A stretch of 34,605 nucleotides of DNA. Origin: Oscillospiraceae bacterium. Its GTDB lineage: Bacteria > Bacillota > Clostridia > Oscillospirales > Oscillospiraceae. Shown here one piece after another: positions 1,549 through 32,962 of this stretch. The position numbers and the translations under genes were made by a program. The stretch covers positions 1-34,605 of the forward strand of contig JAFVCD010000013.1 in NCBI GenBank assembly GCA_017479425.1, read 5' to 3'. The first letter of the stretch is position 1; the number at the start of each line of letters is the position of its first letter. The notes below the pieces were generated by a model, which searched no databases, was not told where the DNA came from, and saw nothing but the letters and a program-made list of their open reading frames with translations.

Positions 1549-1586
1549 AAAAGAGCTGTGAGTTCAAAACTCACAGCTCAATTTTT
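1547..1586. terminator. Bidirectional terminator between the flavin oxidoreductase gene and glgA
   Basis: Ten-bp perfect arms GAGCTGTGAG (1553-1562) and CTCACAGCTC (1570-1579) with a 7-nt loop. There is a T-run on the right and an A-run on the left, so it can end transcription from both converging units. Confidence 0.9.
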
Positions 1587-1587
1587 A

Positions 1588-3216: not shown

Positions 3217-3250
3217 TGTACTTTCACCTCTTGAAAGAAGGGAATATTCT

Positions 3251-3280
3251 CATAAGGGAGGGGATTATCCCCTCCCTATG
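3251..3280 (-). other. Intercistronic hairpin between glgD and glgA
   Basis: Arms AGGGAGGGG (3255-3263) and CCCCTCCCT (3269-3277) with a 5-nt loop, extended by CAT/ATG past a bulged A. There is no T-tract on the minus strand, so it looks like an mRNA stability or processing element rather than a terminator. Confidence 0.55.
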
Positions 3281-3292
3281 AAATGCGGTGAT

Positions 3293-5550: not shown

Positions 5551-5638
5551 TTTCGCGCACCTTCTTTCAGAATAGTTGGGTTATGTTAATATTTTGAACA
5601 CGATTTCAGTTCGCCCCGCGGGCGGGTTTTTCGGAGCC

Positions 5639-8056: not shown

Positions 8057-8083
8057 TGGGTTTCTCCTAACTGTTTGTTTATA

Positions 8084-8105
8084 AAAAGGGCTTGACCCCT
8101 TATTT
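8084..8105 (-). other. Weak hairpin between glgB and glgP
   Basis: Arms AAGGG and CCCTT with a T-run on the minus strand lie in the 54-bp gap. With only five pairs it is at best a partial terminator lowering expression of the genes after glgB. Confidence 0.3.
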
Positions 8106-8110
8106 TCCTG

Positions 8111-13304: not shown

Positions 13305-13344
13305 TGCTATCTCTCCTGATGCGTTATACGGACTGGCACTTGCT

Positions 13345-13376
13345 AAAAAGTGCCGAAAATCATGGATTTCCGGCAC
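13345..13376 (-). terminator. Terminator of tRNA-Arg(CCT)
   Basis: Minus-strand arms AGTGCCGGAAATC / ATTTTCGGCACT around CATG, followed by TTTTT (13345-13349), eight bases past the tRNA CCA end. Confidence 0.8.
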
Positions 13377-13383
13377 TATTGTC

Positions 13384-13460
13384 TGGCACCCTCGACGCGA
13401 TTCGAACGCGTGGCCTTTCGCTTAGGAGGCGAACGCTCTATCCTGCTGAGCTACGAGGGC
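13384..13460 (-). tRNA. tRNA-Arg (anticodon CCT)
   Basis: A 77-nt tRNA on the minus strand. GCCCTCG pairs with CGAGGGT, followed by discriminator G and encoded CCA (13384-13386). D-loop TAGCTCAGCAGGATAGAGC, anticodon loop CTCCTAA on stem TTCGC/GCGAA, and T-loop GTTCGAA are all standard. Anticodon CCT reads arginine AGG. It has its own promoter and terminator. Confidence 0.95.
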
Positions 13461-13475
13461 ATGAACATTATCGTT

Positions 13476-13504
13476 AGTTTAACTCAAAGAGCATAAAGTG
13501 TCAA
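13476..13504 (-). promoter_or_regulatory. Promoter of tRNA-Arg(CCT)
   Basis: Minus strand TTGACA (13499-13504), 17-bp spacer, TAAACT (13476-13481), about 16 bp before the tRNA. Confidence 0.75.
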
Positions 13505-13536
13505 CGAAAAAAATTATAAAAAATAAAAAATAATGC

Positions 13537-13580
13537 TTGCATTTTTGAAAGTATAGTGTTATTATACTTAAGCTTTCTGA
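13537..13580 (+). promoter_or_regulatory. Promoter and leader of tRNA-Arg(ACG)
   Basis: TTGCAT (13537-13542), 17-bp spacer, TATTAT (13560-13565). Two bases later begins TTAAGCTTTCTGA (13568-13580), identical in sequence and in distance from the -10 box to 653-665 in the tRNA-Ser promoter. Confidence 0.65.
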
Positions 13581-13583
13581 TAC

Positions 13584-13660
13584 GCGCCTGTAGCTCAGCC
13601 GGATAGAGTGCGCGGCTACGAACCGCGAGACCGGGGGTTCGAGTCCCTCCAGGCGTGCCA
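13584..13660 (+). tRNA. tRNA-Arg (anticodon ACG)
   Basis: A 77-nt tRNA. GCGCCTG pairs with CAGGCGT (one G-T pair), followed by G and encoded CCA (13658-13660). Anticodon loop CTACGAA lies on stem CGCGG/CCGCG, giving anticodon ACG (inosine-34 after deamination), which reads CGU/CGC/CGA. It diverges from tRNA-Arg(CCT) across a ~120-bp promoter region. Confidence 0.95.
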
Positions 13661-13699
13661 AATACGGAGATACCCAATCGGGTATCTCCGTATTTGCTT
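13661..13699 (+). terminator. Terminator of tRNA-Arg(ACG)
   Basis: Long arms AAATACGGAGATACC / GGTATCTCCGTATTT around a short loop directly after the CCA end, with a short T-containing tail. The right arm is also the motif shared with the region behind tRNA-Ser. Confidence 0.75.
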
Positions 13700-13770
13700 T
13701 CTAGGGAAGGGACTCTAATTCAAAATCGCAATATGCCGCAAAGCGGATGCACCGAGTCCCGGAAGGCGCG
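13682..13770 (+). repeat. tRNA-associated element with degenerate copies of the tRNA-Arg 3' end
   Basis: Contains GTATCTCCGTATTTGCT (13682-13698), an inverted partial copy of the tRNA T-arm (GGGACTC, near 13709), a CCGC-AAA-GCGG mini-hairpin, GCAAAGCGGATGCAC (13738-13752), and a direct degenerate copy of the tRNA 3' region (CCGAGTCCCGGAAGGCG). It is the counterpart of the element at 881-948. Confidence 0.55.
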
Positions 13771-13773
13771 CAT

Positions 13774-13814
13774 AATTATCCCCCTCGATTGTCAGTCGAG
13801 GGGGATTATTTTAT
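13774..13814 (-). terminator. Hairpin at the end of the glycoside operon
   Basis: Arms ATCCCCCTCGA (13778-13788) and TCGAGGGGGAT (13796-13806), extended by A/T pairs with one mismatch. It directly follows the GH78 stop on the minus strand. The T-tract is poor, so termination may be incomplete. Confidence 0.55.
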
Positions 13815-16300
13815 ATCGTCGTGAATTCATATTCTCCTGCGGCGACGGTTTTTATCTTTCCGCCGAGCTTTATATCTGCCGTACAGTTCGACGGAACTGA
13901 TACGCGGAAGATTACGGCGCCTTTTTTCTTCTCCCACGCGCTCTTAACCGTTCCGTAAGGGCTGAGATAGCTCGCCTCGGCGTGCGTTAGCGTTCCTCCC
14001 GGAACGGGCGAGATAGTGAAATGCCGCTCGCCGTCCGCACGGATTCCGCAGACGGTGTCGAACAGCCATCCGACCACGGCGCCGGGCGAGTAGTGATTCT
14101 GGCTGAGATTGCCTTCCCAGTTCTCCCAGATCGTCGTTGCGCCGTCGAGGACTTCGCCGAGCCAGCCCGGCTTTTCGGTATTCTCGAGCATTTTGTATGC
14201 GGTCTCGCTCTCCCCCGCCTCGGTCAGCACGCCGAGGATAAAGGGCGTTGACAAAAATCCCGTTCCGACGCGGAAGCGGTAATTCTCAACCGCGGATTTG
14301 AGCCGCTTCTCGGTGGCTTTTTTCTCCTCGCCGTCCAGCAGTCCGAGAGCGAGCGGACGGACGAGCTTTGCCTGCCGGTCGGTATCAAGAGAGGCGTAGG
14401 TCGGATATACCGATTTCGCGTTCTCCGCAATTTTCCGCAGCTCTATCGCATAGCCCGGCTCGACCTCGTCAGCGATTTCCGCCATAATACGCATCGAATA
14501 AAAGAGATACGCCGTGCACTCCTCCGGGTGCTTTGCCTGAGCGCCGTATACCGTGTCGCGGAACTCCTCCGGCTCAAGCCACTCTCCGAGGTGGACTCCC
14601 TTTTCGTAGTGGCCGTCCTTCTCGATGTTCTTTTTGAGGTACTCTGCGTATGCCTTTATCATCGGCCAGTATGCATCGAGGACGGCTCTGTCGCCGTAGC
14701 GCTTCCAATATCTGTACGGAATGAGGTATATTGCGTCCGCCCAGCCGACAGACGAGCCGGTGGCGGTGTACATCATATCCACGCCCTCGTAGGGCAGCAC
14801 CGCAGGAATGAGCCCGTTTTTGAGCTGTGCGTCCTGCATATCTCTGAGCCACTTTTTGAAGAACGCCGCCGTGTCCATCAGATACGCGCCGGTGTCGAAG
14901 AAAATCTGCGCGTCGCCAGTCCAGCCGAGGCGCTCTCGCGTCGGGCAGTCGGTGGGAATGTCGAGGAAGTTCGATTTCATACTCCAGTGCGTGTTCTCAA
15001 CGAGCTTATTCACAAGCTCATTTGAGCAATTAAACCGCCCGGTTTCCTCCATATCGGAGTAGACTGCAATCGCCTCCGCCTCGATATTTGCCTCGCCCTC
15101 GATCTCAGCGTAACGGAAGCCGAAAATCGAAAACGAGGTCTTGTAAATATCCTCGCCGCCGGAGCAGGTTATCACAATCTCCTGCCTCGGAGTGAAGTCC
15201 ACCTCGCCCTTTACCGGCATACCGAGGAGCTTTTTGATAAGCGAGACCTGATTCCAGCCTCCCGCGGGACGGGCCTCGCGTATTCCGCTGAGGTCGACCT
15301 TGCCGTTTTTAACGACCTCTCCCAGCGTGAGCTTTACGCGCGTGCCGCGCTCTCCGCGAACTCTGAGCGCAACATAGCCCGCGATATTCTGCCCGAAATC
15401 GAGAATATTGCCTTTTCTCGTCGCCTTGAAATGCTCGTGCTCGGTGACCGGGACATTGTCTGAGGCGACGACGGCGCTTTTCGGAGCTTCAACCTCGCGC
15501 GCTCTGCCGGAGAACGTCGGCGTCATACGAAAATCAACGATTTCGCCGTCCTTGAGGTCGGCAAAGCGTATTTCTCCGTCACTGCACCACGCCCACGATG
15601 AGTCCGTGCAGACGGTTTGCGTTTTTCCGTCGTCTGTCGTTATTTCGAGCTGTGCCATCGCGCTCGTTGTATCGCCGTAGACGTTAGTTACGCCGTAGGC
15701 GGCGCTGGAGCCGCGATACCAGCCGTCTGCAAGGCGCAGAGTGACGCTGTTTTCAGTTTTTATTAGCGACGTGACATCATAGACCTGGTACTGTATTCTC
15801 CTGCGGTAATCAGTTATGCCCGGCGCGAGGATAAAGCTCTCGAGGCGCGTGCCGTTTATGGTGACATCGTATACTCCGCGCGCGGTGGCGTAGAGACGCG
15901 CGGATACGATATTCCCGTGAGCCGCGAACTCTTTTCTGAAGAGGTCGACGGGATACCTGCGCCCCTTTTCGGGCTTGTACGCGCCGGATATCCACCTTGC
16001 CGCCCAGTCGGACGGGTCGAGAAGTCCCATCTCAAAGCTCGCTTCCGACCACTCGCCGGGCTTGCCGTGCTCGTCCCAGAGCCGCACCCTCCAATTCACT
16101 CTCTCGCGCGAGGAGAGCTTTCCGCCGTAAAGCGCGCACATCTCCGCACTATCGATCTTGCCGCTCTGCCACTTATCTGCGGCTATCTCATACGCCGTCT
16201 GCTCTCTGCCGCCCTCGCAGTTCCACATAAGGCGCACTTTTTCGGCGCCGAGACCTATCGGCGCGTAAAGATATTCAGTTCTCAGTCTTGCTGCCCTCAT
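13811..16300 (-). CDS. Alpha-L-rhamnosidase, GH78
   Basis: An 829-residue enzyme releasing terminal alpha-L-rhamnose from glycosides. It has N-terminal beta-sandwich domains (to about residue 430: FRKEFAAHGNIVSARLYATARGVYDVTING, typical of GH78) and an (alpha/alpha)6 barrel. The signature DIPTDCPTRERLGWTGDAQIF starts near residue 447. Its Asp/Glu/Asp spacing (D-x4-E-x6-D) matches the rhamnose-binding and acid residues known in Bacillus GH78. A C-terminal beta domain follows (GGTLTHAEASYLSPYGTVKSAW). There is no signal peptide, so it is cytosolic and must act on imported substrate. GAGAGG precedes the start. Only three bases separate it from the Gfo-VOC gene stop; it is the last gene of the operon. 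Confidence 0.92.
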   Translation of the reverse strand: MRAARLRTEYLYAPIGLGAEKVRLMWNCEGGREQTAYEIAADKWQSGKIDSAEMCALYGGKLSSRERVNWRVRLWDEHGKPGEWSEASFEMGLLDPSDWAARWISGAYKPEKGRRYPVDLFRKEFAAHGNIVSARLYATARGVYDVTINGTRLESFILAPGITDYRRRIQYQVYDVTSLIKTENSVTLRLADGWYRGSSAAYGVTNVYGDTTSAMAQLEITTDDGKTQTVCTDSSWAWCSDGEIRFADLKDGEIVDFRMTPTFSGRAREVEAPKSAVVASDNVPVTEHEHFKATRKGNILDFGQNIAGYVALRVRGERGTRVKLTLGEVVKNGKVDLSGIREARPAGGWNQVSLIKKLLGMPVKGEVDFTPRQEIVITCSGGEDIYKTSFSIFGFRYAEIEGEANIEAEAIAVYSDMEETGRFNCSNELVNKLVENTHWSMKSNFLDIPTDCPTRERLGWTGDAQIFFDTGAYLMDTAAFFKKWLRDMQDAQLKNGLIPAVLPYEGVDMMYTATGSSVGWADAIYLIPYRYWKRYGDRAVLDAYWPMIKAYAEYLKKNIEKDGHYEKGVHLGEWLEPEEFRDTVYGAQAKHPEECTAYLFYSMRIMAEIADEVEPGYAIELRKIAENAKSVYPTYASLDTDRQAKLVRPLALGLLDGEEKKATEKRLKSAVENYRFRVGTGFLSTPFILGVLTEAGESETAYKMLENTEKPGWLGEVLDGATTIWENWEGNLSQNHYSPGAVVGWLFDTVCGIRADGERHFTISPVPGGTLTHAEASYLSPYGTVKSAWEKKKGAVIFRVSVPSNCTADIKLGGKIKTVAAGEYEFTTI

Positions 16301-16303
16301 AGA

Positions 16304-17794
16304 TTATCCTCTCCCGTAGAGCTGATACGATCTGTCTGTGTACTCCATAAGCTCGAAGCGGTTGCCCTCCGGATCGTGGATCCAGAGCTGGAGCGTGCCG
16401 TCGATGCCCTCGGCTATCTCGCCCTCGATGTACTCCGCGCCGCCGCGGTCGATTATTGCCTGCCGGAAGTCGCGGATATTCTCAACCTCGAGAGAGAAAT
16501 GCGTGTAGTTGAGGCTGTGGTTGCCCGGAACGGATGGAATTATAGCGCCAATCTGGTCAAAAAGCTCGATAAAGCACACGTCCGCCCACTTCAGGTAGAC
16601 GTTCCAGACCCGCTCGCCCTGCTTTTCGAGAAAAGCGGCATAGCCTGGAACCGGCTCGCCGTTCGCCTCCGCCTTCCGGCGGATATCAGCCGCCATATCG
16701 CGGTAGGTAAGCTCAAACTGAACGGCGCAGCCCATGATCTTTGTATAGAAATCCCGCACCTTTTTCATATCCCTGCAGTTGAAGCCGACGTGACTGATCG
16801 CCTTTATGCGCGTGTTTAGGTCAGGCTTCTCCTCGCCCGGATAGACCACGCCCATCTGCCTGCGGCAATCGTCCATTATCGCCATAATATCGCGCGTAGC
16901 CCTGTGCGGAACGAGGTCAGACTCGGTTTTTCCCGCGAGAATATCGGCGGCTGTGTCGTCAAACTCGTTTCTGTACGCCGCAGTCAAACCGCCCTGCACG
17001 GAAAACCGCTCGGTTTTGTCGGTTTTAAGCTGCGCCTTCTCCGCCATGTGGAAAAACGGCACCGTGATTTTGCCCTTCGTGCCGGTAATCGTCATGCTTT
17101 CGCCCTTGAAGCCCTTGAAGGAAACATACAGTTTCGCCTCAAAGGAGGGGTATTTCATCGTAATATGCTCGTCTACGTCAACTCCGTTGTAGATAGCGCC
17201 CTTTGCCTCGGTCTTTTCCGGCAGTCCGAAGAGCTCATAGACGTATCGGACGGGATAGATGCCGATGTCGACAAGCGCGCCGCCGCCGAGAGCGCGGTTT
17301 ACAAGGCGGCTCGTGGTGTCGCCGCGGCGGAGCATAGGAAAGGCGTAGTTTGCCTCGACGGCTCTGACCTCTCCGATCCTCCCGCTCTCTATCCACTCGC
17401 GCACCTTGAGCGAGACGGGGTTGTGCCACGTCCACATCGCCTCCGCGGCGTAAACTCCCATCTTCTCGGCGAGAGCGAGAATTTCTTCCGTTTCCTCTGA
17501 GTTCATCGCAAAAGGCTTTTCGCACAGCACCGGCTTTCCCGCGAGGATCGCCATGCGCGAGTATTTCGCGTGCGTATCGTTCGGCGTTGCGATATACACC
17601 GCCTGAACGCGCTCGTCGGCAATCGCCTCATCGGCGGTTCTGTACGCAGTTCCGCCGAACTCTGAGGTGAACTTTTCCGCCTTTTCAAAGCTTCTGTTGA
17701 ACGCCGCAACGATTTTATTATCCGTATCCTTCAGCTGCTTCGCTACAGAAACGGCGATTCCCCCGCAGCCGATAAACGCCCAGTTAAAGCTCAT
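16304..17794 (-). CDS. Gfo/Idh/MocA oxidoreductase fused to a VOC (glyoxalase-like) domain
   Basis: A 496-residue two-domain protein. Residues 1-~325 are an NAD(P)-dependent Gfo/Idh/MocA dehydrogenase: Rossmann motif GCGGIA, IATPNDTHAKY, the catalytic-lysine motif LCEKPFAMN, and the C-terminal alpha/beta substrate domain. Residues ~331-490 are a VOC/glyoxalase domain (ISHVGFNCRDMKKVRDFY at its start, NYTHFSLEVENI and IHDPEGNRFELMEY later) with candidate His and Glu metal ligands. The two are normally separate proteins. The start at 17794 has GAGGTAG and an ATGA overlap with the GH2 stop; an upstream in-frame start at 17851 lies within GH2. It may oxidise a sugar or glycoside hydroxyl, with the VOC domain acting on the keto product. 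This is inference. Confidence 0.88.
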   Translation of the reverse strand: MSFNWAFIGCGGIAVSVAKQLKDTDNKIVAAFNRSFEKAEKFTSEFGGTAYRTADEAIADERVQAVYIATPNDTHAKYSRMAILAGKPVLCEKPFAMNSEETEEILALAEKMGVYAAEAMWTWHNPVSLKVREWIESGRIGEVRAVEANYAFPMLRRGDTTSRLVNRALGGGALVDIGIYPVRYVYELFGLPEKTEAKGAIYNGVDVDEHITMKYPSFEAKLYVSFKGFKGESMTITGTKGKITVPFFHMAEKAQLKTDKTERFSVQGGLTAAYRNEFDDTAADILAGKTESDLVPHRATRDIMAIMDDCRRQMGVVYPGEEKPDLNTRIKAISHVGFNCRDMKKVRDFYTKIMGCAVQFELTYRDMAADIRRKAEANGEPVPGYAAFLEKQGERVWNVYLKWADVCFIELFDQIGAIIPSVPGNHSLNYTHFSLEVENIRDFRQAIIDRGGAEYIEGEIAEGIDGTLQLWIHDPEGNRFELMEYTDRSYQLYGRG

Positions 17795-20055
17795 TTTACT
17801 ACCTCGATTTCGCATTCTTTTCCGTTTGCCGTGACCTTCATCGTTCCGCACTCTCCCGCTCTCACAACCGCGAGGGCGCGTCCGTAGTATGTGGCGTACT
17901 CTCCCCTGTCGAAGCGCTCCTCAGTGCGCGGATTTGCGCTTCCGAAGCCCAAAAGCTCGCCGCCCTCGACAAAAACTCTCACCTTTTCATCGGCGTTGGC
18001 CTCGACCGTGCCGCTCTCATCCGCGATGAGAATGGGAATATAGACTATTTCGCCGCTCTTTACAGTGTTTTTCTCGGGCTTTATCGTAATTTCAGCACCT
18101 TTTGCGCTCGAAAGCTCACATCTTGCAATCTCTCTGCCGCCGAGGTCGAAGCAAACCGCTTCGAGCCTGCCGGGGTCGTATTTTACCTTGAAGGTCGCGC
18201 GGCAATCCTTCGCTCTTGCTTTGCCGACGAGCTTTCCGTTGAGATAAAGCTCGACTCTCGCGCCCTCGGTGTAGACCTCGACTGTCGCCTCTTTCCCCTC
18301 GCAGCCGCGCCAAGACCAGCTCGGAATGGCGTTAGTGCCGCGCCACACGCCCTTTATGGGCTTCTCAGAGTGGTTAATCGGCTGCACGGCGATGGAGCTT
18401 CCCTTGCTCCAGACCGCGCTCGCCCAGAGTGCCTCGCCATTCGGGTCACCGAGAATATCGAAGGCGCCGGTATCGCCGAGGAGCCACGGATAGGGCTTTG
18501 AAAAGCCCTTGCCGTCCGGCGTGAACGCCCACGCCCCGATGCCCGCTTCGCCCATATAATCCCACGCCGTCCACATAAAGTCGCCGATGAGATACGGGTA
18601 CTTCTTCACCATTGCCCAGTTCTTCGCAAGCGTCTGCGGGAAGGTCTCGGAGCCGACTATCACGCGCTCGGGGTGCGCCTTTCCGTCGATTGCGTACCTG
18701 CCGGAGGCGTAGTTGTAGCCGCAGATGTCGAGATGCTTGAGGCTCGGGCTCGTCACCGCGTCGGCGCCCTTGGAGTTTGCCGAGCTGTTCATTCCGGTGC
18801 CGACAAACGAGGTTATGAGGTTGAACATCGTCGAGCTCATGCCGGAGAGCTTCTTCTCTCCATCGGCGCTTGGCTCCTCCTTCGAGGTATCGAACATCTC
18901 CCTGCCCTTTGCGGCGTTGGAAATGATCATCAGATTGAAGCCGCCGGTCACTGCGCGCGCCGGGTCGATGGCGTGGATATGCTCCGCCATCTCGCGCGTC
19001 TTTTCAATTCCCTCGGACTTCGCGGGCTCAGATACCTCGTTGCCTATGGAGTACATAATTACCGACGGGTGATTATAGTCGCGGCTCACGAGAGCGTCGA
19101 TATCGGCTATGTAATTATCGTGCCACTGCGATGCGTAGTCGAATTTTGTCTTTGCGTGGTACCACATATCCCACGTTTCGTCCATAACATACACTCCGAG
19201 CTCATCGCAGGCGTCGAGAAGTGCGCGCGAGGCAGGGTTATGCGCGCTTCTGATGGCGTTGAAGCCGGCGTTTTTAAGTATCCTCACGCGGCGGTGCTCC
19301 GCCTCGTCGTAAGTCGCGGCGCCGAGAACGCCGCTGTCGTGGTGAATGCATCCGCCGCGCAGGAGGGTTTCACGGCCGTTAATAAACAGTCCCTTCGGGC
19401 TCCACTCGATCTTGCGGATTCCGAAGCGCACCTCCGCCTCATCGTCGGCGGTTCTGACCTTCGCCGTGTAGAGATACGGGTCATTCTCGCTCCAGAGGCG
19501 GGCACTCGGAATTGTGAGCTCGAAGCTCTCGCCCTCGCCGGTAACCCCGTCCACCGATGCGGTAACCTTTTTCGCGCTTTTTACGCGGATTATCACAGGA
19601 TCTGTCGAAACCGTGTCGATTTTAACGCTCTCCGGCTCGATAACATCGCCGTTTCCGGTATAGAGCCACACCGGGCGGTAGATACCCGCTCCGGAGTACC
19701 AGCGGCTCTGCGGCTCCTCAACGGCGCACTCTACTCTGACTGTGTTCTCGCCGTCGGAGAGGTACTCGTCGAGCTGAACGAAAAACGGAATGTAGCCGTA
19801 AGCCGCGCCGCCCGCGAGAGTACCGTTTACATAGACCCGCGCGTTTTTATAAACGCCCTCGAAGTGGAGTATGGAGTGCTCAGCCCCGGGCTTCTGAAAT
19901 TTTTTCTCATAGACCCACTCGCCGCCCGCGAAGAACGCTCCGGCGCTTCCGGAGGGCGCGTCGGGTCGGCGCTCGGTGTGCAGCATAGCGTCGTGCGGGA
20001 GCGTTACCGCCTCGCCGTTACAAGTCCAGCTATCATTCCATGATACTCTTTTCAT
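17791..20055 (-). CDS. Beta-galactosidase-like glycoside hydrolase, GH2
   Basis: A 754-residue GH2 enzyme: N-terminal jelly-roll domain (FEGVYKNARVYVNGTLAGGAAYGY), an immunoglobulin-like domain, the catalytic barrel (~250-560) and C-terminal beta domains. The acid/base is Glu340 in YSIGNEVSE and the nucleophile Glu470 in IVGSETFP. RGGCIHHDSGVLGAATYDEA fits the beta-galactosidase branch, but beta-glucuronidase-like or other GH2 activity cannot be excluded. There is no signal peptide, so it is cytosolic. AAAGGAG precedes the ATG, which overlaps the GH1 stop by four bases. Its own stop overlaps the start of the Gfo-VOC gene in the same way. Confidence 0.92.
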   Translation of the reverse strand: MKRVSWNDSWTCNGEAVTLPHDAMLHTERRPDAPSGSAGAFFAGGEWVYEKKFQKPGAEHSILHFEGVYKNARVYVNGTLAGGAAYGYIPFFVQLDEYLSDGENTVRVECAVEEPQSRWYSGAGIYRPVWLYTGNGDVIEPESVKIDTVSTDPVIIRVKSAKKVTASVDGVTGEGESFELTIPSARLWSENDPYLYTAKVRTADDEAEVRFGIRKIEWSPKGLFINGRETLLRGGCIHHDSGVLGAATYDEAEHRRVRILKNAGFNAIRSAHNPASRALLDACDELGVYVMDETWDMWYHAKTKFDYASQWHDNYIADIDALVSRDYNHPSVIMYSIGNEVSEPAKSEGIEKTREMAEHIHAIDPARAVTGGFNLMIISNAAKGREMFDTSKEEPSADGEKKLSGMSSTMFNLITSFVGTGMNSSANSKGADAVTSPSLKHLDICGYNYASGRYAIDGKAHPERVIVGSETFPQTLAKNWAMVKKYPYLIGDFMWTAWDYMGEAGIGAWAFTPDGKGFSKPYPWLLGDTGAFDILGDPNGEALWASAVWSKGSSIAVQPINHSEKPIKGVWRGTNAIPSWSWRGCEGKEATVEVYTEGARVELYLNGKLVGKARAKDCRATFKVKYDPGRLEAVCFDLGGREIARCELSSAKGAEITIKPEKNTVKSGEIVYIPILIADESGTVEANADEKVRVFVEGGELLGFGSANPRTEERFDRGEYATYYGRALAVVRAGECGTMKVTANGKECEIEVVK

Positions 20056-21320
20056 TTTGCCGTCTCCTTTAAGCTTCCGAGAACTCGAAGGCTCTCCTTG
20101 GTTTTTCTTTCCATCGTTTCTCTGTCCACAGCTATAAGACCGAAGGTCTTAGCGTAGCCCGCCTGCCACTCAAAGTTATCGAGGAGCGACCAGTGGAGAT
20201 ACCCCGTGACCGGCGCTCCCGCGCTCTTCGCCGCCATTACGGAGTCAAACGCCTCGCGGATAAATTCGCATCTGCGATTATCGTCGTCTGTTGCGATGCC
20301 GTTTTCCGTAACGATAAGCTCGCCCTTGTAGCTTCGCGAGACCCTTGCGAGCACGTTTCCTATGCTCGCTGGATAGTCCTCATAGCCCATCTGCGTGACC
20401 CTCGCCTCTCTCGCAGGAGAGCGCGCGCCGCTCTCGTCAACGATTTTGCGCGAATAATTCTGAACTCCGAGAAAATCGTCGTCCTTGATATACGGAAGAT
20501 ACCAGCCGAAATCCTCGTGCCAGAGCTTCGCCGCCGCGCTCTTGCCTCTCTCAGTCGGTTGATAATCGAAAAGCGAGAGCGTAAGCCCGACCTTAGTGTC
20601 TGGCGATGCCTCTTTTATCGCTCTTTTCGCGGCGAGGTGCGCCTCCATGACGCATCTTTCGCTCTTTTCATCGCGCGGCTTAAGAAATGAGTTTATCGCA
20701 AGAGGGTTAGTCTTAAACGCTATCCCCTGCTCGACCATTCCGATGAGAATAGATTTCAGGTCAAGCCCGCTGTTCTGCCCGACCTGCACTCCGCCCTCTT
20801 TGCGCGCGCCTGCATTCATCATGTCCGCAATGACCTTGTGGAGCTGAATGCCCATGTTCGCCTCGTTTATCGTGCAGATATACGGGAGCTTTTCGCCGAG
20901 AGCCCTTGCCACATATCCCGCGTAACGCGCAAAATACGCCGCGACAGCATTTTTCGCCCAGCCGCCCTTTTTTATGAGCCACGCAGGGGAAGAAAAGTGC
21001 ATAAGCGTGACGATGGGCGTAACTCCATTATCATAGCAGCAGTCGATAACGCGGCGGTAGTGCTCTATCTCCGCCTTGTCGAACGCTCCCTCCTCCGGCT
21101 CAATGCGCGCCCATTCGATTCCGAAGCGGTAGGCGTTGCCGCCGGCTTCCGCGAGGAGACGTATATCCTCCTCATAGCGGTTATAGTGGTCGCAGGCGAC
21201 GCCAGAGGGCTCAGTGAAATCCGAGTGCTTCACATTCTCCATCACCCAATAGTCGGAGTGGATGTTATTGCCCTCGACCTGATGTGCAGCAGTCGCCGCG
21301 CCGATAAAAAACTCATGCAT
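20052..21320 (-). CDS. Beta-glucosidase-type glycoside hydrolase, GH1
   Basis: A 422-residue GH1 (beta/alpha)8 enzyme. It opens with FFIGAATAAHQVEGNN, the usual GH1 start. The acid/base Glu153 is in TINEANM and the nucleophile Glu339 in IVTENGIA; LHWSLLDNFEWQAGY near residue 380 is the aglycone-side signature. It lacks the phosphate-binding features that would mark a 6-phospho-beta-glucosidase, fitting uptake by a symporter rather than a PTS. It is slightly shorter than the usual ~450 residues. It is cytosolic. Its GGAG site lies in the last codons of the GH43 gene, six bases upstream. Confidence 0.92.
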   Translation of the reverse strand: MHEFFIGAATAAHQVEGNNIHSDYWVMENVKHSDFTEPSGVACDHYNRYEEDIRLLAEAGGNAYRFGIEWARIEPEEGAFDKAEIEHYRRVIDCCYDNGVTPIVTLMHFSSPAWLIKKGGWAKNAVAAYFARYAGYVARALGEKLPYICTINEANMGIQLHKVIADMMNAGARKEGGVQVGQNSGLDLKSILIGMVEQGIAFKTNPLAINSFLKPRDEKSERCVMEAHLAAKRAIKEASPDTKVGLTLSLFDYQPTERGKSAAAKLWHEDFGWYLPYIKDDDFLGVQNYSRKIVDESGARSPAREARVTQMGYEDYPASIGNVLARVSRSYKGELIVTENGIATDDDNRRCEFIREAFDSVMAAKSAGAPVTGYLHWSLLDNFEWQAGYAKTFGLIAVDRETMERKTKESLRVLGSLKETAK

Positions 21321-21326
21321 GGCTTT

Positions 21327-22766
21327 TTACTCCAATGTGAATTTCAGAAAATCGAACCTTCCCGCGCCCTCGTATTCAAAGCACAGCGCGCTTACGCCGT
21401 CGCGTATATTGAGCGCGCTGGAGTAGGTCGTCCACGTTTTTGACGGAGCGATATTCACAGCGCTTATCGCCGCGCCCTCGGGCGAAGCCTTGACAAGCAG
21501 TCTGCCGCCCGCGCTTCCGCGGACGGTCACGGAAACGCTCTTCGCATTTTCAAAGCGGAAATATTTATATACCGCCGTCATCCCGTCCCTGCAGTTAGCT
21601 ATATACTGCTCCGGCGCCTCGCCGCCCATCTCGGGCGACCAGTCCTCACCGCTCTGCGTGATGTACGGATGGCGCATACCCATCGCAAGCGGGTGCGAAA
21701 TGGTCGGCGTCTGCTTTCCGTAGAGGTTGCACGCTATGGAGGCTGGGTATGTGCCGATTCCCGAGAGAGCGCCGCCGTTAAGTCCGCAGCTTGTGATATG
21801 CACCTGCGGAATGGAGCCGTCCGGGAGAATTTCTATCCTCTCGGCGCAGCCCTGGCGCGAGAACATCGTGCGGTTTGTCTGGCGATGGTAGAAGATGTAA
21901 TACCGCCCGTCTACGCACTCTATTCCGCCGTGGTCGTTGCCGTAGGTGCAGAGCGGCGCGCCGCCCTCGCCCGGGAACAGATCGCAGTTTGATACGATAA
22001 CTCCGCCGTAACGGTAATCTCCGTCCGGCCTGTCGCTCACGGCGTAGCACAGCTCGTGGAGCGTAACCGACGAATAGACGAGGTAATACTTGCCGCGGAT
22101 CCTTCTTATCGAGCTTGCCTCGAAGAATTCATGCCCCTCAAAGCCCGTTCCCTCCGCCTCGCCGAGAGTCGGAAGCAGCTTTTTCGGCTCGGTTTTAAGC
22201 GTCAGCATATCGTCCTCAAGGGTCATAACGGTGCTCGCCTTCGGCTCCTTGCCGATGGCGCTTCTTGTGCGCGGACCGTTGCCGGAGTAGAGATAAATTT
22301 CGCCGTCATCGTCGATGAAAACTCCGGGGTCGAAGGGTATCGTATCGCCCTCGCGCTCGCCGATTATACCGCCCTCGCTGTCGCGCACAACGCCGTGGAA
22401 CATATACCTTCCCGCCGGCGTATCGCACACCGCGACGCCGATAGATTTCACAGCGTCATCCGGGCAGTAGAAGAGATAATACCTGCCGTCCTTGCCTCTT
22501 ACCACGTCCGGCGCCCACATCTCATGCTGTCCGCGAGGCATACGCGGATCCTGAGTTTTCTTGTAAATCACGCCCTCATAGCGCCAGTCGGTGAGATTGC
22601 TCACCGGCGCAGACCACGCGACGTAATCATTCATACAGAACTTTTTGCCGCCGAAGCGGTCGTGACTGCCGTAAATATACAGTCTGTCGCCGAAAACGTG
22701 CGGTTCGCCGTCCGGGATGTATTCCCACGTCGGCAGATAAGGATTGTAAACCTGCATTTTATCCAC
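21327..22766 (-). CDS. Glycoside hydrolase GH43 with a CBM6-like C-terminus
   Basis: A 479-residue protein with a five-bladed beta-propeller (residues ~5-320) and a C-terminal beta-sandwich (~345-479) resembling CBM6. Candidate catalytic acids follow the GH43 pattern: Asp in IPDGEPHVF near the N-terminus, Asp in MWAPDVVRG, and Glu in GHEFFEASSIRR. Members act on alpha-L-arabinofuranosides or beta-D-xylosides; the choice cannot be made here. There is no signal peptide. Start choice: GTG at 22766, with GGAGG six bases upstream and an 8-base overlap with GH3. An ATG three codons later is the alternative. Confidence 0.88.
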   Translation of the reverse strand: MDKMQVYNPYLPTWEYIPDGEPHVFGDRLYIYGSHDRFGGKKFCMNDYVAWSAPVSNLTDWRYEGVIYKKTQDPRMPRGQHEMWAPDVVRGKDGRYYLFYCPDDAVKSIGVAVCDTPAGRYMFHGVVRDSEGGIIGEREGDTIPFDPGVFIDDDGEIYLYSGNGPRTRSAIGKEPKASTVMTLEDDMLTLKTEPKKLLPTLGEAEGTGFEGHEFFEASSIRRIRGKYYLVYSSVTLHELCYAVSDRPDGDYRYGGVIVSNCDLFPGEGGAPLCTYGNDHGGIECVDGRYYIFYHRQTNRTMFSRQGCAERIEILPDGSIPQVHITSCGLNGGALSGIGTYPASIACNLYGKQTPTISHPLAMGMRHPYITQSGEDWSPEMGGEAPEQYIANCRDGMTAVYKYFRFENAKSVSVTVRGSAGGRLLVKASPEGAAISAVNIAPSKTWTTYSSALNIRDGVSALCFEYEGAGRFDFLKFTLE

Positions 22767-25149
22767 GCTTCTCCTCCGTCAGCTTCTTTGCCATATGGTA
22801 AACTCTTGTAGCGTTCTCCTCCAGCTGCCGCCTTGTGAGAGAGCCGTCCTTCAGCGCCTTCATCACGTTGTCGAAGTCGCCCTTGCCGCCCGGCATAAAC
22901 AGATCTCCGCCCGCTGCCTCCACACAATGTGAAAGTGCGTTCCGGTAACGAGGATTCTGCACCTGCGTTATCGCCGCAACCACCCAGTCGGTCATGACTA
23001 TGCCCTCGTAGCCCCACTCAGCGCGAAGAACGTCAGTAATGAGGTCTCTGCGCTCTGAGGTGTGGGTGCCGTTCAGGAGGTTATACGAGGTCATAACGGC
23101 GTGCGGCTGGCTCTCGCGCACGCAGATTTCAAAGCCCTTGAGGTATATTTCGCGCATCGCTCGCTCGGAAACCTGACTGTTTACTCCGATGCGGTTAAAC
23201 TCCTGATTGTTGACGGTGAAGTGCTTAATCGTTGTACCGCAGCCGGCGTGTCGCTGAACTCCCCTTGTGATCGCGGCGGCAAACGCGCCGGAGATAACGG
23301 GATCCTCCGAGTAATATTCAAAGTTTCTTCCGCAGCGTATATCGCGGTGGATATTGAGCGCCGGCGCGAGCCACAGATGCACGCCGAAGCGCTCCATCTC
23401 ATCGCCGACTATGTCGCCGAGAGTCTCGGCAAGCTCGGTATTCCAGCTCTGCGCGATGGCGGTGCCGATGGGTATTGCGGTGCAGTACTGGTGCTTTGTT
23501 TCGCCTGCGTTCTTCTTCGGGCGATTGAGAAACGCCATGAATTTGCGCTGAATGGGGCTCATAAGCTCCATTATGCTCTCCGGCATCGTATCGCCGAGAG
23601 GGTGAACGCCCTTCTCGTCCTCATAGTAGTCGCGGCTGATGCGCAGACCGGCGGGGCCGTCCGCCATAACGAGGTGCGGGAAATTGTGTATATGCGCCGT
23701 TTCGCCCGCCGCGCCCGCGACGCTCATGGCAGCGTTGCCTATCATGCTCGCAAGTCCCGCTTTGGGGTCGAATGCGCCGATGGTGAGATAGCTGAGCTCC
23801 TCATCCGTGAGGTCGTCCATTATTGGATCGATCTCGGCGGGAGCGTCGTAGACCGCGGCTTTGGTCTTGAAGGATTTGGCGGAAATATCTATTATTTTTT
23901 CAGCCTTCGGCGCGGTCTGCGTATTCTCCGGTCTCCAGTCGGTGAAGTCCGGCGTGCCGAGGGAATTTCGGAGCTGAGTGAGAACGGCGGTATCGCCGAG
24001 CCTCAGCGTAACCGCCGGCTCATTACCTATGAGGACGGTGTAGTCTCCCCCTTCGAGCACCCACGCGGCGCTCGAGGTATCATAGGAGGCGGCGCTTTTA
24101 ATATCAAAGGGAATTGTCAGCACTTCGCTCCCGCCGGGAGCTATTTCGCCCGTCTTTTTGAATGCGGCGAGCGCGCGGTATGGCTTGTCGAGCGCACCCT
24201 GCGGCGGCGCGATATAGAGCTGCACAGTCTCTTTTCCGGCGTGTGCGCCGGTGTTTTTTACGGTCACTGTGACCGATTTATCGTCTGTGGAGGTGATTTT
24301 CGTCTCAAAATCCGTGTAGCCGAGCCCGAAGCCGAAGGGGAAAAGCGGCCTTCTGCCGACCGCGTCGAAGTAGCGGTAGCCGACGTAAACACCCTCGCGG
24401 TATCTCGCCTCATCCTGGTCGCCGAACTCGCCTATCTTCGGATAGTCCTCCCACGAGGTCCACGTTGTGGTGAGCTTGCCGGAGGGATAGCTCTTGCCGA
24501 GCAGTATATCTGCGAGGGTATTGCCGGTCTCAGCGCCGAGCTGTGAGAGAACGAGGATGTTTTTCACGTCCCTGACCGGAGTGAGATCGACGGGACCGCC
24601 GACGTTCAGCACGAGCATAAACCGCTTATAGCGCTCGTTCAGTATGAGAATATCGCGCTTTTCGGAGTCAGAAAGGAGGATATCGCCCTTGACCGGCGTG
24701 CGGTCAGAGCCCTCGCCCGAGATGCGCGAGAGGACGTAGATCGCGGTATCGCCGTCGCCGTAGAGGCGGAAATTATATTCCGGCTCCGGCATAACGGCGC
24801 CCATGCCCTCCATTATCGCAATGGTGTGCTTAGCCTTTGCGCGCGCCTTGATCTCAAGCGCAAACGCCTTTTTCGCGGAAGATAGGGTATTGTCGTAGGC
24901 GTCAAGCCACGGCTTTGTGGTGATCGTAAAGCCAGCGTTCTCGAGTCCCTGCTCGATGGTGACAAAATAGCGCGAGTTTACCTCGCCGGAGCCGGTGCCG
25001 CCCTTAACAGTGTGTCTTGCGCCGGAGCCGTAGAGCGCTATTTTGCCCGGTGCCGTGAGAGGAAACGCGCCGTCTCGTTTGAGCAGAACTGTGCACTCCG
25101 CGGCGAGAGTGCGAACCGACTGAGCGTGTTTTACTTCGTAATCGTTCAT
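22759..25149 (-). CDS. Circularly permuted GH3 beta-glycosidase
   Basis: A 796-residue GH3 enzyme whose domains are in reverse of the usual order. The alpha/beta sandwich comes first (residues ~15-260, LVLNVGGPVDLTPV), then a fibronectin III-like domain (~280-350, VTVTVKNTGAHAGKETVQLY), then the (beta/alpha)8 barrel (~450-796) with TTIKHFTVNN and nucleophile Asp721 in GIVMTDW. This permuted arrangement is known from some ruminococcal beta-glucosidases. There is no signal peptide. The start at 25149 has AGGAG upstream; a longer in-frame start at 25218 would run into the transporter's 3' end. The activity is probably beta-glucosidase or beta-xylosidase. Confidence 0.92.
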   Translation of the reverse strand: MNDYEVKHAQSVRTLAAECTVLLKRDGAFPLTAPGKIALYGSGARHTVKGGTGSGEVNSRYFVTIEQGLENAGFTITTKPWLDAYDNTLSSAKKAFALEIKARAKAKHTIAIMEGMGAVMPEPEYNFRLYGDGDTAIYVLSRISGEGSDRTPVKGDILLSDSEKRDILILNERYKRFMLVLNVGGPVDLTPVRDVKNILVLSQLGAETGNTLADILLGKSYPSGKLTTTWTSWEDYPKIGEFGDQDEARYREGVYVGYRYFDAVGRRPLFPFGFGLGYTDFETKITSTDDKSVTVTVKNTGAHAGKETVQLYIAPPQGALDKPYRALAAFKKTGEIAPGGSEVLTIPFDIKSAASYDTSSAAWVLEGGDYTVLIGNEPAVTLRLGDTAVLTQLRNSLGTPDFTDWRPENTQTAPKAEKIIDISAKSFKTKAAVYDAPAEIDPIMDDLTDEELSYLTIGAFDPKAGLASMIGNAAMSVAGAAGETAHIHNFPHLVMADGPAGLRISRDYYEDEKGVHPLGDTMPESIMELMSPIQRKFMAFLNRPKKNAGETKHQYCTAIPIGTAIAQSWNTELAETLGDIVGDEMERFGVHLWLAPALNIHRDIRCGRNFEYYSEDPVISGAFAAAITRGVQRHAGCGTTIKHFTVNNQEFNRIGVNSQVSERAMREIYLKGFEICVRESQPHAVMTSYNLLNGTHTSERRDLITDVLRAEWGYEGIVMTDWVVAAITQVQNPRYRNALSHCVEAAGGDLFMPGGKGDFDNVMKALKDGSLTRRQLEENATRVYHMAKKLTEEKRG

Positions 25150-25187
25150 TTCTGTACTCTCCTGTCTTATTCCGCAAATGCGGCTGC

Positions 25188-25209
25188 GGGCGGCTTTTTT
25201 CTGCCGCCC
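25188..25209 (-). other. Intercistronic hairpin between transporter and GH3 genes
   Basis: Arms GGGCGGC (25188-25194) and GCCGCCC (25203-25209), loop of 8. There is no T-tract after it on the minus strand, so mRNA processing or stabilisation of the transporter message is likelier than termination. Confidence 0.45.
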
Positions 25210-25221
25210 TTCAGTCATTGT

Positions 25222-26916
25222 TTATTTCTTATGCTTTGCTTTTTTTGCCTCTTCCTTCGCCTTTTTCTCTGCGAGGGCTGCCTGATACTTTGCCTCCTCG
25301 GCGGCAAAGTCGAGACCCTTCTTCGCGCATTTCTCCCTGAGCTCCTTTATGCGGTTCTCCTCTGCAATACGGTCAAACTCCTCCTGCTCAAGGCGAGCCT
25401 TCTCCTCGGGGGAGACGTACACCTCGCCTCTCGCCTCTGCCTCAGCCTTGTGGCGGGCTGTGATGTCGGCGGATATCTGCGGCATTTTCTCCTCAACGTC
25501 GAAGCGGAGCATAAGCAGCGAGCCGATGGCATAGCCTATCATCGGAACACCGACGAAGCACCAGTTGAAGAAGGTCTTGACCGCGTCGGTCTGGTTGATG
25601 ACCTCAAGGTTGTCGACCGGCGCGCGGTAGCCGAAGGCGGAGATGCCTGCCAGCAGTATAGTCTGACCGATACCGGCGGCGACGGTGATGATAATGCTGT
25701 TGACGGAGGCGGAGAAGCCGTCCGCGCGGAAGCCGTTTTTCCACTCGATGTGGTCGAGCGCCTCAGCGAGCTGCGCCGCCATAACATATGTAGGAAGCGC
25801 GCCGATGGACTTGATGACAAGTCCGCCGAGAACAATGCCCATGTTGCCCGGGAAGAGCAGTACGATAAGGCTGCCGACAGCGCCGATTCCGAGGCCGATC
25901 ATCATCACCATGCGCTTGCCGAAGCGCTTGACAAGCGGCCAGAGGACTACAAGTCCTATGCCGAGCGGCGCCTGCCCGATGGCGTTGACAAGTATCTGAT
26001 TGCCGACGCCGGAATCGACCGAGTTGCCGAGCACCCAGTTACAATAGTATATCATGGAATTCGTGGAAAGGAAATTAAATATCTGATAGGTGATGTTGAA
26101 GCCCATAACTATCATCCAGTACGGATCCTTGACGCACGCCTTCATCTGATCCACGAAGCTGACGGTGGCGGCGCCGGACTCGTCGGAGACTTGCGCGTCC
26201 TCGGTGACGCGCTCCTTCGTGAAGTAGTACTCAACGAGCGTCGCAGGGAGCGCGAGAACGGAGAGAAGTCCCATTACGAAGATCCACGTTCCCTGTGCCT
26301 CGGGGCCGACTCCGATGGCGTTGATGACGGCGGGGAGAATGATAGTGACGAGCAGTCCCGGGATCATCGAGGTGCCGGTGGAGGTAAGGAGTGCGAGACC
26401 GTCGCGCTGGCGGGTATTGCGGGTGGAGAGCGGCACCATGAGCGAGTGGCTCATGTTATAAATTGTGAACGCAAAGGCAAAGAACAGGTTGTAGCTGACT
26501 ACGATCCAGATAATTCTGAGCGCGTCGGCGCTGCCGTCGGGATTGGTAGAGCCGGGAACGGTGTACATAAGCACACCGCAGATAGCCATGAACACGCCGG
26601 AGAGCAGCACCCACGGGCGCGCCTTGCCCTGACGGGTGCGGGTGGAGTCAATGATGCGCCCCATTATTATGTTCGTGATCGCGTCGATTATCTTGGAGAT
26701 GACCGGCATGGCGATTATAAAGCCGCCGGCAAGTCCGAGAACGTCGGTGTAGAACTGAGTGAGATACGTTCCGGCGATGGCGTAGTACATCATGTACACC
26801 ATCATCGGGCCGACGAAGTAGCCGAGGATTCCCTCAGCCTTCTGCGTGTTCGCGCTCTTAATGCGCGAATCGAGCCTGGGCGATGCGAAGAGCTTTGACT
26901 TTGAAAGTGCTGCCAT
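25222..26916 (-). CDS. GPH-family glycoside/sugar:cation symporter
   Basis: A 564-residue transporter of the glycoside-pentoside-hexuronide:cation symporter family (MelB/XynB-like). About 12 membrane segments span residues ~30-465. The family region following the second segment, GRIIDSTRTRQGKARPWVLLSG, is clear. A hydrophilic charged tail (~475-564) rich in Glu, Lys and Ala probably forms a coiled coil ending in a Lys-rich stretch; GPH proteins usually end soon after the last helix. It is the first gene of the glycoside operon, with GGGAGG before its ATG and an extended -10 promoter upstream, so it is presumably the importer for the substrate of the five glycosidases. Confidence 0.92.
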   Translation of the reverse strand: MAALSKSKLFASPRLDSRIKSANTQKAEGILGYFVGPMMVYMMYYAIAGTYLTQFYTDVLGLAGGFIIAMPVISKIIDAITNIIMGRIIDSTRTRQGKARPWVLLSGVFMAICGVLMYTVPGSTNPDGSADALRIIWIVVSYNLFFAFAFTIYNMSHSLMVPLSTRNTRQRDGLALLTSTGTSMIPGLLVTIILPAVINAIGVGPEAQGTWIFVMGLLSVLALPATLVEYYFTKERVTEDAQVSDESGAATVSFVDQMKACVKDPYWMIVMGFNITYQIFNFLSTNSMIYYCNWVLGNSVDSGVGNQILVNAIGQAPLGIGLVVLWPLVKRFGKRMVMMIGLGIGAVGSLIVLLFPGNMGIVLGGLVIKSIGALPTYVMAAQLAEALDHIEWKNGFRADGFSASVNSIIITVAAGIGQTILLAGISAFGYRAPVDNLEVINQTDAVKTFFNWCFVGVPMIGYAIGSLLMLRFDVEEKMPQISADITARHKAEAEARGEVYVSPEEKARLEQEEFDRIAEENRIKELREKCAKKGLDFAAEEAKYQAALAEKKAKEEAKKAKHKK

Positions 26917-27319: not shown

Positions 27320-28519
27320 ATGACTCTTCACGAGAAGCTCGAGCTGTACGGAAACATGATTCTATCCTGCCACAAGCTCTATCTGTGGACATACGGAGCT
27401 GATATGCAGCTCATCTCTACTAACTGTCCCGACTCTGCGCTCATAGGCGCGCTCTTCACCCTTGAGAACAAGTGCGATGAGCTGCGTTATTACTCAGAAG
27501 GGCACAAGAAGCCGATCATCATGGCAAACAGCTTCGGGCTTATGTGGATCGCCGTTCCGGAGCGCAATGCGCAGAACCTGTCGCGAATATATCTGCTCGG
27601 TCCCTTTTTTGTGGATTCCGTCAGAACCGAGGCGATACAGCAGAGCGTTTCGCGCCTCGATATGAGCGGAGAGGTCAAGCTGAAGGTGATGCAGTTTCTG
27701 CGCGAGCTGCCGGTCGTAGGACTGGGTCACGCATTTGAGTATGCGATAATGCTCTATCATTGTATTTACGGCGAGACCATAGGCGTGAGCGATATGCACT
27801 ATCTCGAGTCCGAGCCGATTCCGGAGGCAAAGAATGACGAGGCTCGCACGCGGGTTCACGGCACCTACGAGCTTGAGCGAGAGGTTCTGCGGATGGTCAA
27901 GGACGGCGATCTGAACTATAAGGAGAAGCTGAGCCGCCTCGCCATGACCGGAACTATGGGTCAGATGTCTAACGGCGACCCGTCCCGTCAGATGAAGAAC
28001 GCGGTTATTGTCTGCGCGATTCTCTTTTCGCGCGCGGCAATCGACGGAGGTCTGTCGCCGGAGGTCGCGCTCACGCTGACGGACAAGTATTTTCAGTCCA
28101 TCGAGGCCTCCCGAACGATGTCTGAGCTGAGTGAAGTCGCGTTTACTATGCAGGAGGATTTCGTGCGGAGAGTGCACCGGATCCGATCGCGCTCGCTCTC
28201 CTCCCCCATCAGCGAGTGCTGCGACTATATTGATTTCCACATTGAGGAGAATATTACCCTCGAGCAGCTATCCGAAAAGGTCAGATATTCCGGCTTTTAC
28301 CTCAGCCGCAAGTTCAAGGAGGAGACGGGAAAAAGCATAAAGGAGTATATACGACTCAAGAAGTTAGAGCGCGCAAAGGATATGCTGCGCGATAATACAC
28401 TGACAGTCAAGGAGATCGGAGAGCGGCTCGGCTTCTGCTCACAGAGCTATTTGACAGAGCAGTTCAAGCGCGAATACGGCGCAACGCCTTCTCAGTGGCG
28501 AGAGATAGAATATATTTAA
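27320..28519 (+). CDS. AraC-family transcriptional regulator
   Basis: A 399-residue regulator. Residues ~298-396 form the two helix-turn-helix AraC DNA-binding domain: ITLEQLSEKVRYSGFYLSRKFKEETG, then IGERLGFCSQSYLTEQFKREYG and P-S-Q-W-R. The ~280-residue N-terminal part is presumably the ligand-sensing domain; its family is not recognised. It diverges from the glycoside operon across a 168-bp AT-rich region (two genes including the 73-aa ORF), so it is the likely activator of the operon. The ribosome binding site is weak (AAGGCGGG). An inverted-repeat element follows the stop. Confidence 0.92.
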   Translation: MTLHEKLELYGNMILSCHKLYLWTYGADMQLISTNCPDSALIGALFTLENKCDELRYYSEGHKKPIIMANSFGLMWIAVPERNAQNLSRIYLLGPFFVDSVRTEAIQQSVSRLDMSGEVKLKVMQFLRELPVVGLGHAFEYAIMLYHCIYGETIGVSDMHYLESEPIPEAKNDEARTRVHGTYELEREVLRMVKDGDLNYKEKLSRLAMTGTMGQMSNGDPSRQMKNAVIVCAILFSRAAIDGGLSPEVALTLTDKYFQSIEASRTMSELSEVAFTMQEDFVRRVHRIRSRSLSSPISECCDYIDFHIEENITLEQLSEKVRYSGFYLSRKFKEETGKSIKEYIRLKKLERAKDMLRDNTLTVKEIGERLGFCSQSYLTEQFKREYGATPSQWREIEYI

Positions 28520-32943: not shown

Positions 32944-32962
32944 AATCATTTTCCTTTATCAA

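Follow-up and report, generated by a model that had tools for sequence, protein, structure and literature searches.

A Gfo/Idh/MocA dehydrogenase joined to a VOC domain in a glycosidase operon: a candidate oxidise-then-enolise sugar enzyme

What might a sugar dehydrogenase gain from carrying a glyoxalase-type domain on the same chain? The question is raised by a gene in a 34,605-nucleotide stretch of DNA from an Oscillospiraceae bacterium (contig JAFVCD010000013.1 of assembly GCA_017479425.1), referred to here as the window. The gene and its two halves are as follows.

16304..17794, minus strand: Gfo-VOC fusion gene, 496 aa plus stop, a single unbroken ORF
16829..17794, minus strand: Gfo/Idh/MocA dehydrogenase half, residues 1-322, its C-terminal limit being roughly that of stand-alone homologues and of the structure 2o48
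16307..16822, minus strand: VOC (glyoxalase-type) half, residues 325-496

The frame runs from an ATG at 17794 to a stop at 16304-16306; an alternative GTG start at 17851 would give a 515-aa product. By Pfam, a complete Gfo/Idh/MocA dehydrogenase is followed by a VOC domain. The matches to GFO_IDH_MocA (PF01408; residues 3-115, 6.8e-25, 88.5 bits) and GFO_IDH_MocA_C3 (PF22725; residues 129-243, 6.5e-19, 68.6 bits) lie above the Pfam cut-offs, as does a modest match to Glyoxalase/VOC (residues 333-482, 3.1e-05, 24.8 bits versus a cut-off of 20.6). The protein is a new combination of two known domain families. Its genomic neighbours comprise:

13811..16300, minus strand: GH78 alpha-L-rhamnosidase, the operon gene downstream of the fusion (Pfam)
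17791..20055, minus strand: GH2 glycosidase, upstream of the fusion and overlapping its start (Pfam)
20052..21320, minus strand: GH1 glycosidase (Pfam)
21327..22766, minus strand: GH43 glycosidase (Pfam)
22759..25218, minus strand: GH3 glycosidase with inverted domain order (Pfam)
25222..26916, minus strand: MFS_2 / GPH-type sugar symporter (Pfam, NCBIfam)
27320..28519, plus strand: AraC-type regulator, divergent (Pfam)

On the minus strand the order is therefore symporter-GH3-GH43-GH1-GH2-fusion-GH78, a gene set for the degradation of plant-type sugars. The fusion looks operonic, since its ATG and the stop of the GH2 gene upstream share the sequence ATGA and the GH78 start lies 3 nt past its own stop. 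No signal peptide was obvious when the GH2 and GH78 translations were inspected by eye, which fits the breakdown of imported glycosides inside the cell. The preliminary description of this locus had placed a dehydrogenase-VOC fusion within a glycosidase operon; Pfam and five further genomes confirm this, and its coordinates were right.

Elsewhere in the window and its genome, several features bear separate mention. In the GH3 protein (22759-25218, minus strand), GH3_C and Fn3 stand ahead of GH3_N, an order repeated at 12996-15713 in locus L004 and at 1557-4493 in L121, a locus of the window's genome; inverted-order GH3 enzymes are already known. Behind the L121 GH3 gene, at 4517-5413 (plus strand), sits an AP_endonuc_2 gene whose protein is 50% identical to the L004 counterpart, in the arrangement found in L004. 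The genome has three AP_endonuc_2 matches, all on another contig than the window, and the window operon has no gene for such a TIM-barrel eliminase beside the fusion. Two minus-strand ORFs of 542 and 593 aa (28856-30484 and 31168-32949) are without a Pfam match at E 0.001, as is a nearby 220-aa ORF; a zinc-ribbon protein is encoded close by. At 1588-10021 (minus strand) lies an ordinary glycogen cluster by Pfam, with starch-synthase-type, two nucleotidyltransferase-type (GlgC/GlgD-like), phosphorylase and branching-enzyme-type genes.

Five further fusions were found (L002, L003, L004, L035 and G370), making six with that of the window. A genome scan, driven by six short patterns and hence incomplete in its counts, returned 37 loci. 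Full-length fusions make up four of them (L002, L003, L004 and L035); 30 match in the Gfo half alone (L005-L034) and three, by the scan's own match, in the VOC half alone (L036-L038). The G370 fusion came from a family-level search. In the 30 Gfo-only loci, tblastn gave no match to the VOC half. In all six genomes the halves meet at one and the same point, behind a YP.E motif, and an assembly or frameshift artefact was ruled out as the source of the fusion; the recurrence of the architecture in five further genomes, with 44-51% identity, argues that it is not an assembly accident. Among the Gfo-only loci, L008 (Alkalibacterium sp. 20) has a different, weak VOC gene at 1196-1690 (plus strand), just upstream of its stand-alone Gfo gene, and the stand-alone Gfo gene of Jeotgalibaca caeni (L034, 7488-8444, plus strand) has an in-frame stop within its last quarter.

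The fusion is rare. Record titles identify its carriers as Lachnospiraceae, Faecalibacterium-labelled and Erysipelotrichaceae MAGs, with goat jejunum and water-buffalo abomasum as the sources of two. In overlapping samples to which E-value limits were applied, an intact fusion occurred in 2 of 400 family genomes (the window's and G370), and in 1 of 295 order, 1 of 391 class and 1 of 398 phylum genomes, each time the window's. In a plasmid collection, 1375 records matched the fusion query; identity was below 60% in every one, and in no record did a single place cover 80% of the query. In the 20 of these listed, the matches took in 64-72% of the query, which is the Gfo half, with two reaching slightly beyond. 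No Gfo-VOC fusion was described in the titles and abstracts searched (open-licence PMC papers), which is not proof of absence.

The gene contexts of these relatives vary. L002 places the fusion in an operon with GH43, GH2 (by BLAST and NCBIfam), symporter, GH3 and GH106 genes. L004 has xylulokinase, xylose isomerase, symporter, GH3, AP_endonuc_2 and GH78 genes; the symporters of both loci and the L004 GH78 were assigned by BLAST. The L035 fusion adjoins an aldo/keto reductase gene, with no glycosidase recognised in the part compared; that of L003 lies close to the end of its contig and has a solute-binding protein gene downstream of it; that of G370 adjoins a second Gfo gene, and ABC-transporter genes are present at its locus. 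The preliminary description had asked whether the same fusion recurs and in what operons. It does, five more times, and three of the six lie in clear glycosidase operons, the other three having been scanned for part of their neighbours. Xylose isomerase and xylulokinase genes occur near L004, L024 and L033 (in L024 by BLAST alone).

To which known enzymes is each half closest? In the dehydrogenase half, three putative catalytic residues can be placed.

17516..17518, minus strand: K93 of the EKP motif, in a column invariant in alignment A3 (26 Gfo-containing rows, 2 VOC-only rows)
17267..17269, minus strand: D176, aligned with D176 of the dimeric dihydrodiol dehydrogenase 2o48
17255..17257, minus strand: Y180, aligned with Y180 of 2o48

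All three are invariant in the six aligned fusions, and D176 and Y180 are at least 90% conserved in A3; the EKP lysine and the second catalytic motif are both present. In the alignment, R34 and K38 occupy the positions of R37 and R41 in 2o48, which presumably have a role in NADP use, and the half probably uses NADP.

Against the PDB, a profile of the six fusions matched 2o48 best, over the full Gfo length (E 1.6e-46, 162 bits), followed by 3e9m and 3evn, named just 'oxidoreductase'. The next named activity was 'sugar 3-ketoreductase' 3rbv (113 bits), with 1,5-anhydrofructose reductase (89 bits) and glucose-fructose oxidoreductase (80 bits) lower. With the window protein alone, 3e9m scored 109 bits, 2o48 103 and DgpA, 7xr9, 65. 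By NCBIfam, D-xylose 1-dehydrogenase Gfo6 (NF041392) ranked first at 97.5 bits, below its cut-off of 350, and inositol 2-dehydrogenase second at 71 bits; glycoside 3-dehydrogenase BT_2158 reached 51.2 bits of a cut-off of 750, and disaccharide 3-dehydrogenase BT_2159 34.4 of 650. Xylose dehydrogenase did not rank first for the L024 Gfo protein or the second G370 one. By score ranks, on which the choice between C1 and C3 oxidation is based here, the Gfo half is nearest, among characterised enzymes, to dimeric dihydrodiol/NADP D-xylose 1-dehydrogenase and not to the C3-oxidising DgpA or BT2158 types. Excerpts of PMC2228372 equate the dimeric dihydrodiol dehydrogenase of pig liver with NADP D-xylose dehydrogenase.

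In the VOC half we located four putative metal ligands.

16790..16792, minus strand: H335, putative metal ligand 1, aligned with E. coli glyoxalase I H5
16565..16567, minus strand: E410, putative metal ligand 2, in an FIELF motif, invariant in the fusion alignment
16499..16501, minus strand: H432, putative metal ligand 3, aligned with glyoxalase I H74
16352..16354, minus strand: E481, putative metal ligand 4, aligned with glyoxalase I E122

We take the metal ligands of E. coli glyoxalase I to be H5, H74 and E122 with E56 as the fourth, and E410 to be the counterpart of E56, a position outside the computed alignment. This H-E-H-E set is invariant in all six fusions and is kept in the split VOC protein of G265 and the stand-alone ones of L041, L036 and L037; K391, W397, Y400, S489 and Q491 are among the other VOC residues invariant in the six. 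The preliminary description would have fallen had the VOC domain lacked its ligands, and on this point it holds. The VOC half as a dead domain was ruled out by the same conservation. No glyoxalase I equivalog scored above the NCBIfam cut-off, SMU1112c_YaeR alone being listed (24.4 of 140 bits).

Were the halves joined once? Trees of the two disagree. In the midpoint-rooted Gfo tree the six fusions do not group and are scattered among stand-alone Gfo proteins: G370 groups with stand-alone G437 and G265 (100/98), L002 with L035 (100/100), and L003 and L004 with L024 and L031 (100/99), while a long branch separates the window row from the others. The fused domains of all six form one clade (100/98) in the VOC tree, with G370 beside L003 and L004 (100/99); the group with G265 added is weakly supported (74/26). 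The Gfo half of G370 shares 66% identity with stand-alone G437 and 34-40% with the remaining five fusions, whereas its VOC half is 74% identical to that of L003 and 66% to that of L004. This conflict indicates repeated joining of VOC and Gfo, or an exchange of domains, at the same place.

Split and reduced forms also occur. G265 is a two-gene version, in which the VOC ATG lies 1 nt past the Gfo stop; an upstream TTG start would give a 20-nt overlap. L024 (9992-10993, plus strand) encodes a whole stand-alone Gfo protein followed directly by about 15 residues that match the VOC end. The Gfo tree places it beside the L004 fusion (98/84), with which it shares its operon type, the two xylose isomerases being 92% identical, and it is an apparent remnant of VOC-domain loss. 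As an L004-type operon without most of the VOC domain, it indicates that the Gfo half can persist alone. In G1289, a 47-aa ORF (L128, 1471-1614, plus strand; also L129) joins a Gfo-like start to a VOC end, with neither half kept whole, and appears to be the remnant of a Gfo-VOC gene. The GH2 and GH78 proteins of its operon are 56% and 62% identical to the window's, and the ORF is flanked by an AP_endonuc_2 gene on one side and a GH43 gene on the other. Both remnants come from multi-contig assemblies, in which an assembly error is possible. As they stand, they show that the VOC domain can be lost, which counts against a strict dependence of the halves.

Stand-alone VOC genes provide a further comparison. 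The count covers 41 such places in 37 genomes; at 5 of them a Gfo gene lies no more than about 1.5 kb away (G265, G647, G494, G1169 and G1223, the last with another gene in between), versus 0.75 expected (P ~0.001); without G265 the count is 4 versus 0.74 (P ~0.007). These Poisson P values are rough: the expected number derives from PF01408 counts with rounded genome sizes, and Gfo genes may cluster in sugar loci. The remaining 36 places are without a nearby Gfo gene. The partners were confirmed by Pfam in G494 and G1223 and by Gfo-type NCBIfam matches in G647, G1169 and G265. Excluded before counting were L036-L038 (no genome count), L008 (with its different VOC gene) and L125-L127 (found later); among these, L037 has a Gfo gene one gene away and none was seen at L125-L127. 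Gfo and VOC genes that both favour sugar loci may give such adjacency without a shared intermediate.

Together, the further fusions, the two-gene G265, the apparent deletion remnants, the conflict between the G370 halves and the adjacency counts argue for a functional coupling of the two halves. We propose that the fusion is a bifunctional, intracellular, oxidise-then-enolise sugar enzyme, a reading based on sequence comparison to which we give a probability of roughly 55%. Its Gfo half, judged by family and intact catalytic residues, would oxidise a small sugar or glycoside, released or taken up by the products of the operon, to a ketone or lactone adjacent to a hydroxyl. The metal of the VOC half, given the intact H-E-H-E site, would then bind the vicinal hydroxy-carbonyl and support a glyoxalase-I-like proton transfer via an enediolate; the outcome would be isomerisation or epimerisation, or, given a suitably placed leaving group, elimination. 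The symporter and glycosidases of the window, the related L002 and G1289 operons, and the xylose isomerase and xylulokinase genes near L004 count in its favour. The two active sites may not face each other. The interpretation in the preliminary description is partly supported: the idea that the VOC domain performs an enolisation or elimination after oxidation survives in this form, through the kept H-E-H-E site and the genetic linkage of the halves; its attachment to C3 oxidation and cleavage of intact glycosides is not supported.

Should the halves share an intermediate, VOC proteins would gain a role in keto-sugar chemistry, of a kind so far known, to our knowledge, from TIM barrels and cupins, and bacteria including animal-gut species (by record titles) would have a new kind of sugar-converting enzyme. 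The two-gene G265, L024 with its apparent VOC loss and the shuffled G370 are natural controls.

One specific form of the oxidise-then-enolise reading, to which we give a low probability, is a self-contained sugar isomerase or epimerase that is redox-neutral overall: after oxidation by the Gfo half, the VOC half would shift the carbonyl or invert the neighbouring carbon via a metal enediolate, and the Gfo half would in turn use its bound NADPH to reduce the product. Such an enzyme would explain two observations in the window genome, which is 84% complete: no PF01408 protein other than the fusion was found, and a search via ILVD_EDD revealed no dedicated sugar-acid dehydratase. The ILVD_EDD search was also how an aldonate pathway was looked for; its sole gene, near a threonine ammonia-lyase gene, scores above the ilvD cut-off and not above those of the sugar-acid dehydratase models, and is ilvD.

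It is doubtful that the protein is an aldose 1-dehydrogenase, whose Gfo half would make an aldonolactone and whose VOC half would be a lactonase, a lactone C2 isomerase or a mutarotase-like anomer helper. The top-ranking families, Gfo6 (NCBIfam, below cut-off) and dimeric dihydrodiol dehydrogenase, favour that assignment, as do the xylose isomerase and xylulokinase genes near L004, L024 and L033 and the D-xylose activity of the pig-liver enzyme in the excerpts of PMC2228372. That no dedicated sugar-acid dehydratase was seen in the 84% complete genome counts against it, as does the want of a xylose isomerase match in the window genome, from a search without a positive control. We also know of no VOC lactonase.

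The preliminary description had favoured oxidation of intact O- or C-glycosides at C3 followed by VOC-catalysed beta-elimination of the aglycone, and this we consider unlikely. The glycosidase operon and the predicted intact VOC metal site suit it, as do 3rbv, the next named activity in the PDB profile list, and the AP_endonuc_2 genes (the eliminase fold) that occur within the L004 operon and next to the remnant in G1289. Excerpts of PMC10628242 describe the eliminases AtOGE and PuCGE as using Mn2+ for such chemistry, but these are TIM barrels. The Gfo half, moreover, ranks nearer xylose 1- and dihydrodiol dehydrogenases than glycoside 3-dehydrogenases (BT_2158_fam, 51 bits versus 750), and the xylose isomerase and xylulokinase genes near three relatives further weaken the proposal. 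Five hydrolytic glycosidases are already in the operon, and with a single PF01408 protein found in the 84% complete genome, no other was seen that could reduce a 3-keto sugar.

It is quite improbable that the VOC half serves in dimerisation or sugar binding without catalysis: its loss from L024 while the Gfo half stays would suit such a role, but the four ligand positions and K391, W397, Y400, S489, Q491 and others would hardly be invariant in six of six fusions. Least probable is a clean-up of reactive sugars, with the Gfo half reducing and the VOC half isomerising alpha-dicarbonyl sugars such as deoxyosones, which draws on the glyoxalase-I-like ligand pattern, the ability of dihydrodiol dehydrogenase to reduce dicarbonyls and an aldo/keto reductase gene (best NCBIfam match DkgA, below cut-off) that overlaps a VOC relative at L109, but as a housekeeping role leaves the sporadic spread (2 of 400 family genomes) and the specialised glycosidase setting unexplained.

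How does the proposed oxidise-then-enolise enzyme compare with known systems? The dimeric dihydrodiol/NADP D-xylose 1-dehydrogenases (2o48, the pig enzyme, Hypocrea XYD1) resemble its first half: the fusion profile covers residues 4-322 on residues 3-333 of the 2o48 chain, with K97, D176 and Y180 corresponding to K93, D176 and Y180. Unlike the fusion, 2o48 is without a VOC domain, and its R127 corresponds to W123. Glyoxalase I (E. coli GloA, 1f9z) shares the VOC family and the correspondence of H5, H74 and E122 with H335, H432 and E481, but its similarity is weak (E 0.0024), it has 135 residues versus 172, and the fusion's VOC domain is joined to a dehydrogenase. DgpA with CGE, and OGE, share the proposed logic of a Gfo-type oxidation (by DgpA) and a metal-assisted second step; their eliminases differ in being separate, Mn2+-using TIM-barrel proteins (excerpts of PMC10628242), and with the window protein DgpA 7xr9 reaches 65 bits where 2o48 reaches 103.

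Oxidation followed by cleavage within one polypeptide, of which the preliminary description knew no example, is already described for GH4, GH109 and GH188, with no VOC domain mentioned in the excerpts of PMC10755693; what is new here is the separate VOC domain. In these families and in YjhC, according to excerpts of PMC7315737 and PMC10755693, one chain oxidises, eliminates, hydrates and re-reduces a sugar at what is proposed to be a single active site, again with the VOC domain unmentioned. YjhC is a Gfo member for which a redox-neutral version has been proposed (PMC7315737, excerpts), and GH188 resembles a Gfo-type structure (PMC10755693, excerpts). Pfam and NCBIfam searches reported no GH109- or GH188-type match for the fusion protein. 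Finally, inositol dehydrogenase IolG and inosose isomerase IolI, the latter a TIM barrel and a separate protein, oxidise their substrate, isomerise the ketone and re-reduce it. Their logic is that of the redox-neutral reading of the fusion, there divided between two proteins and here, on that reading, contained in one chain, with a VOC domain replacing the TIM barrel.
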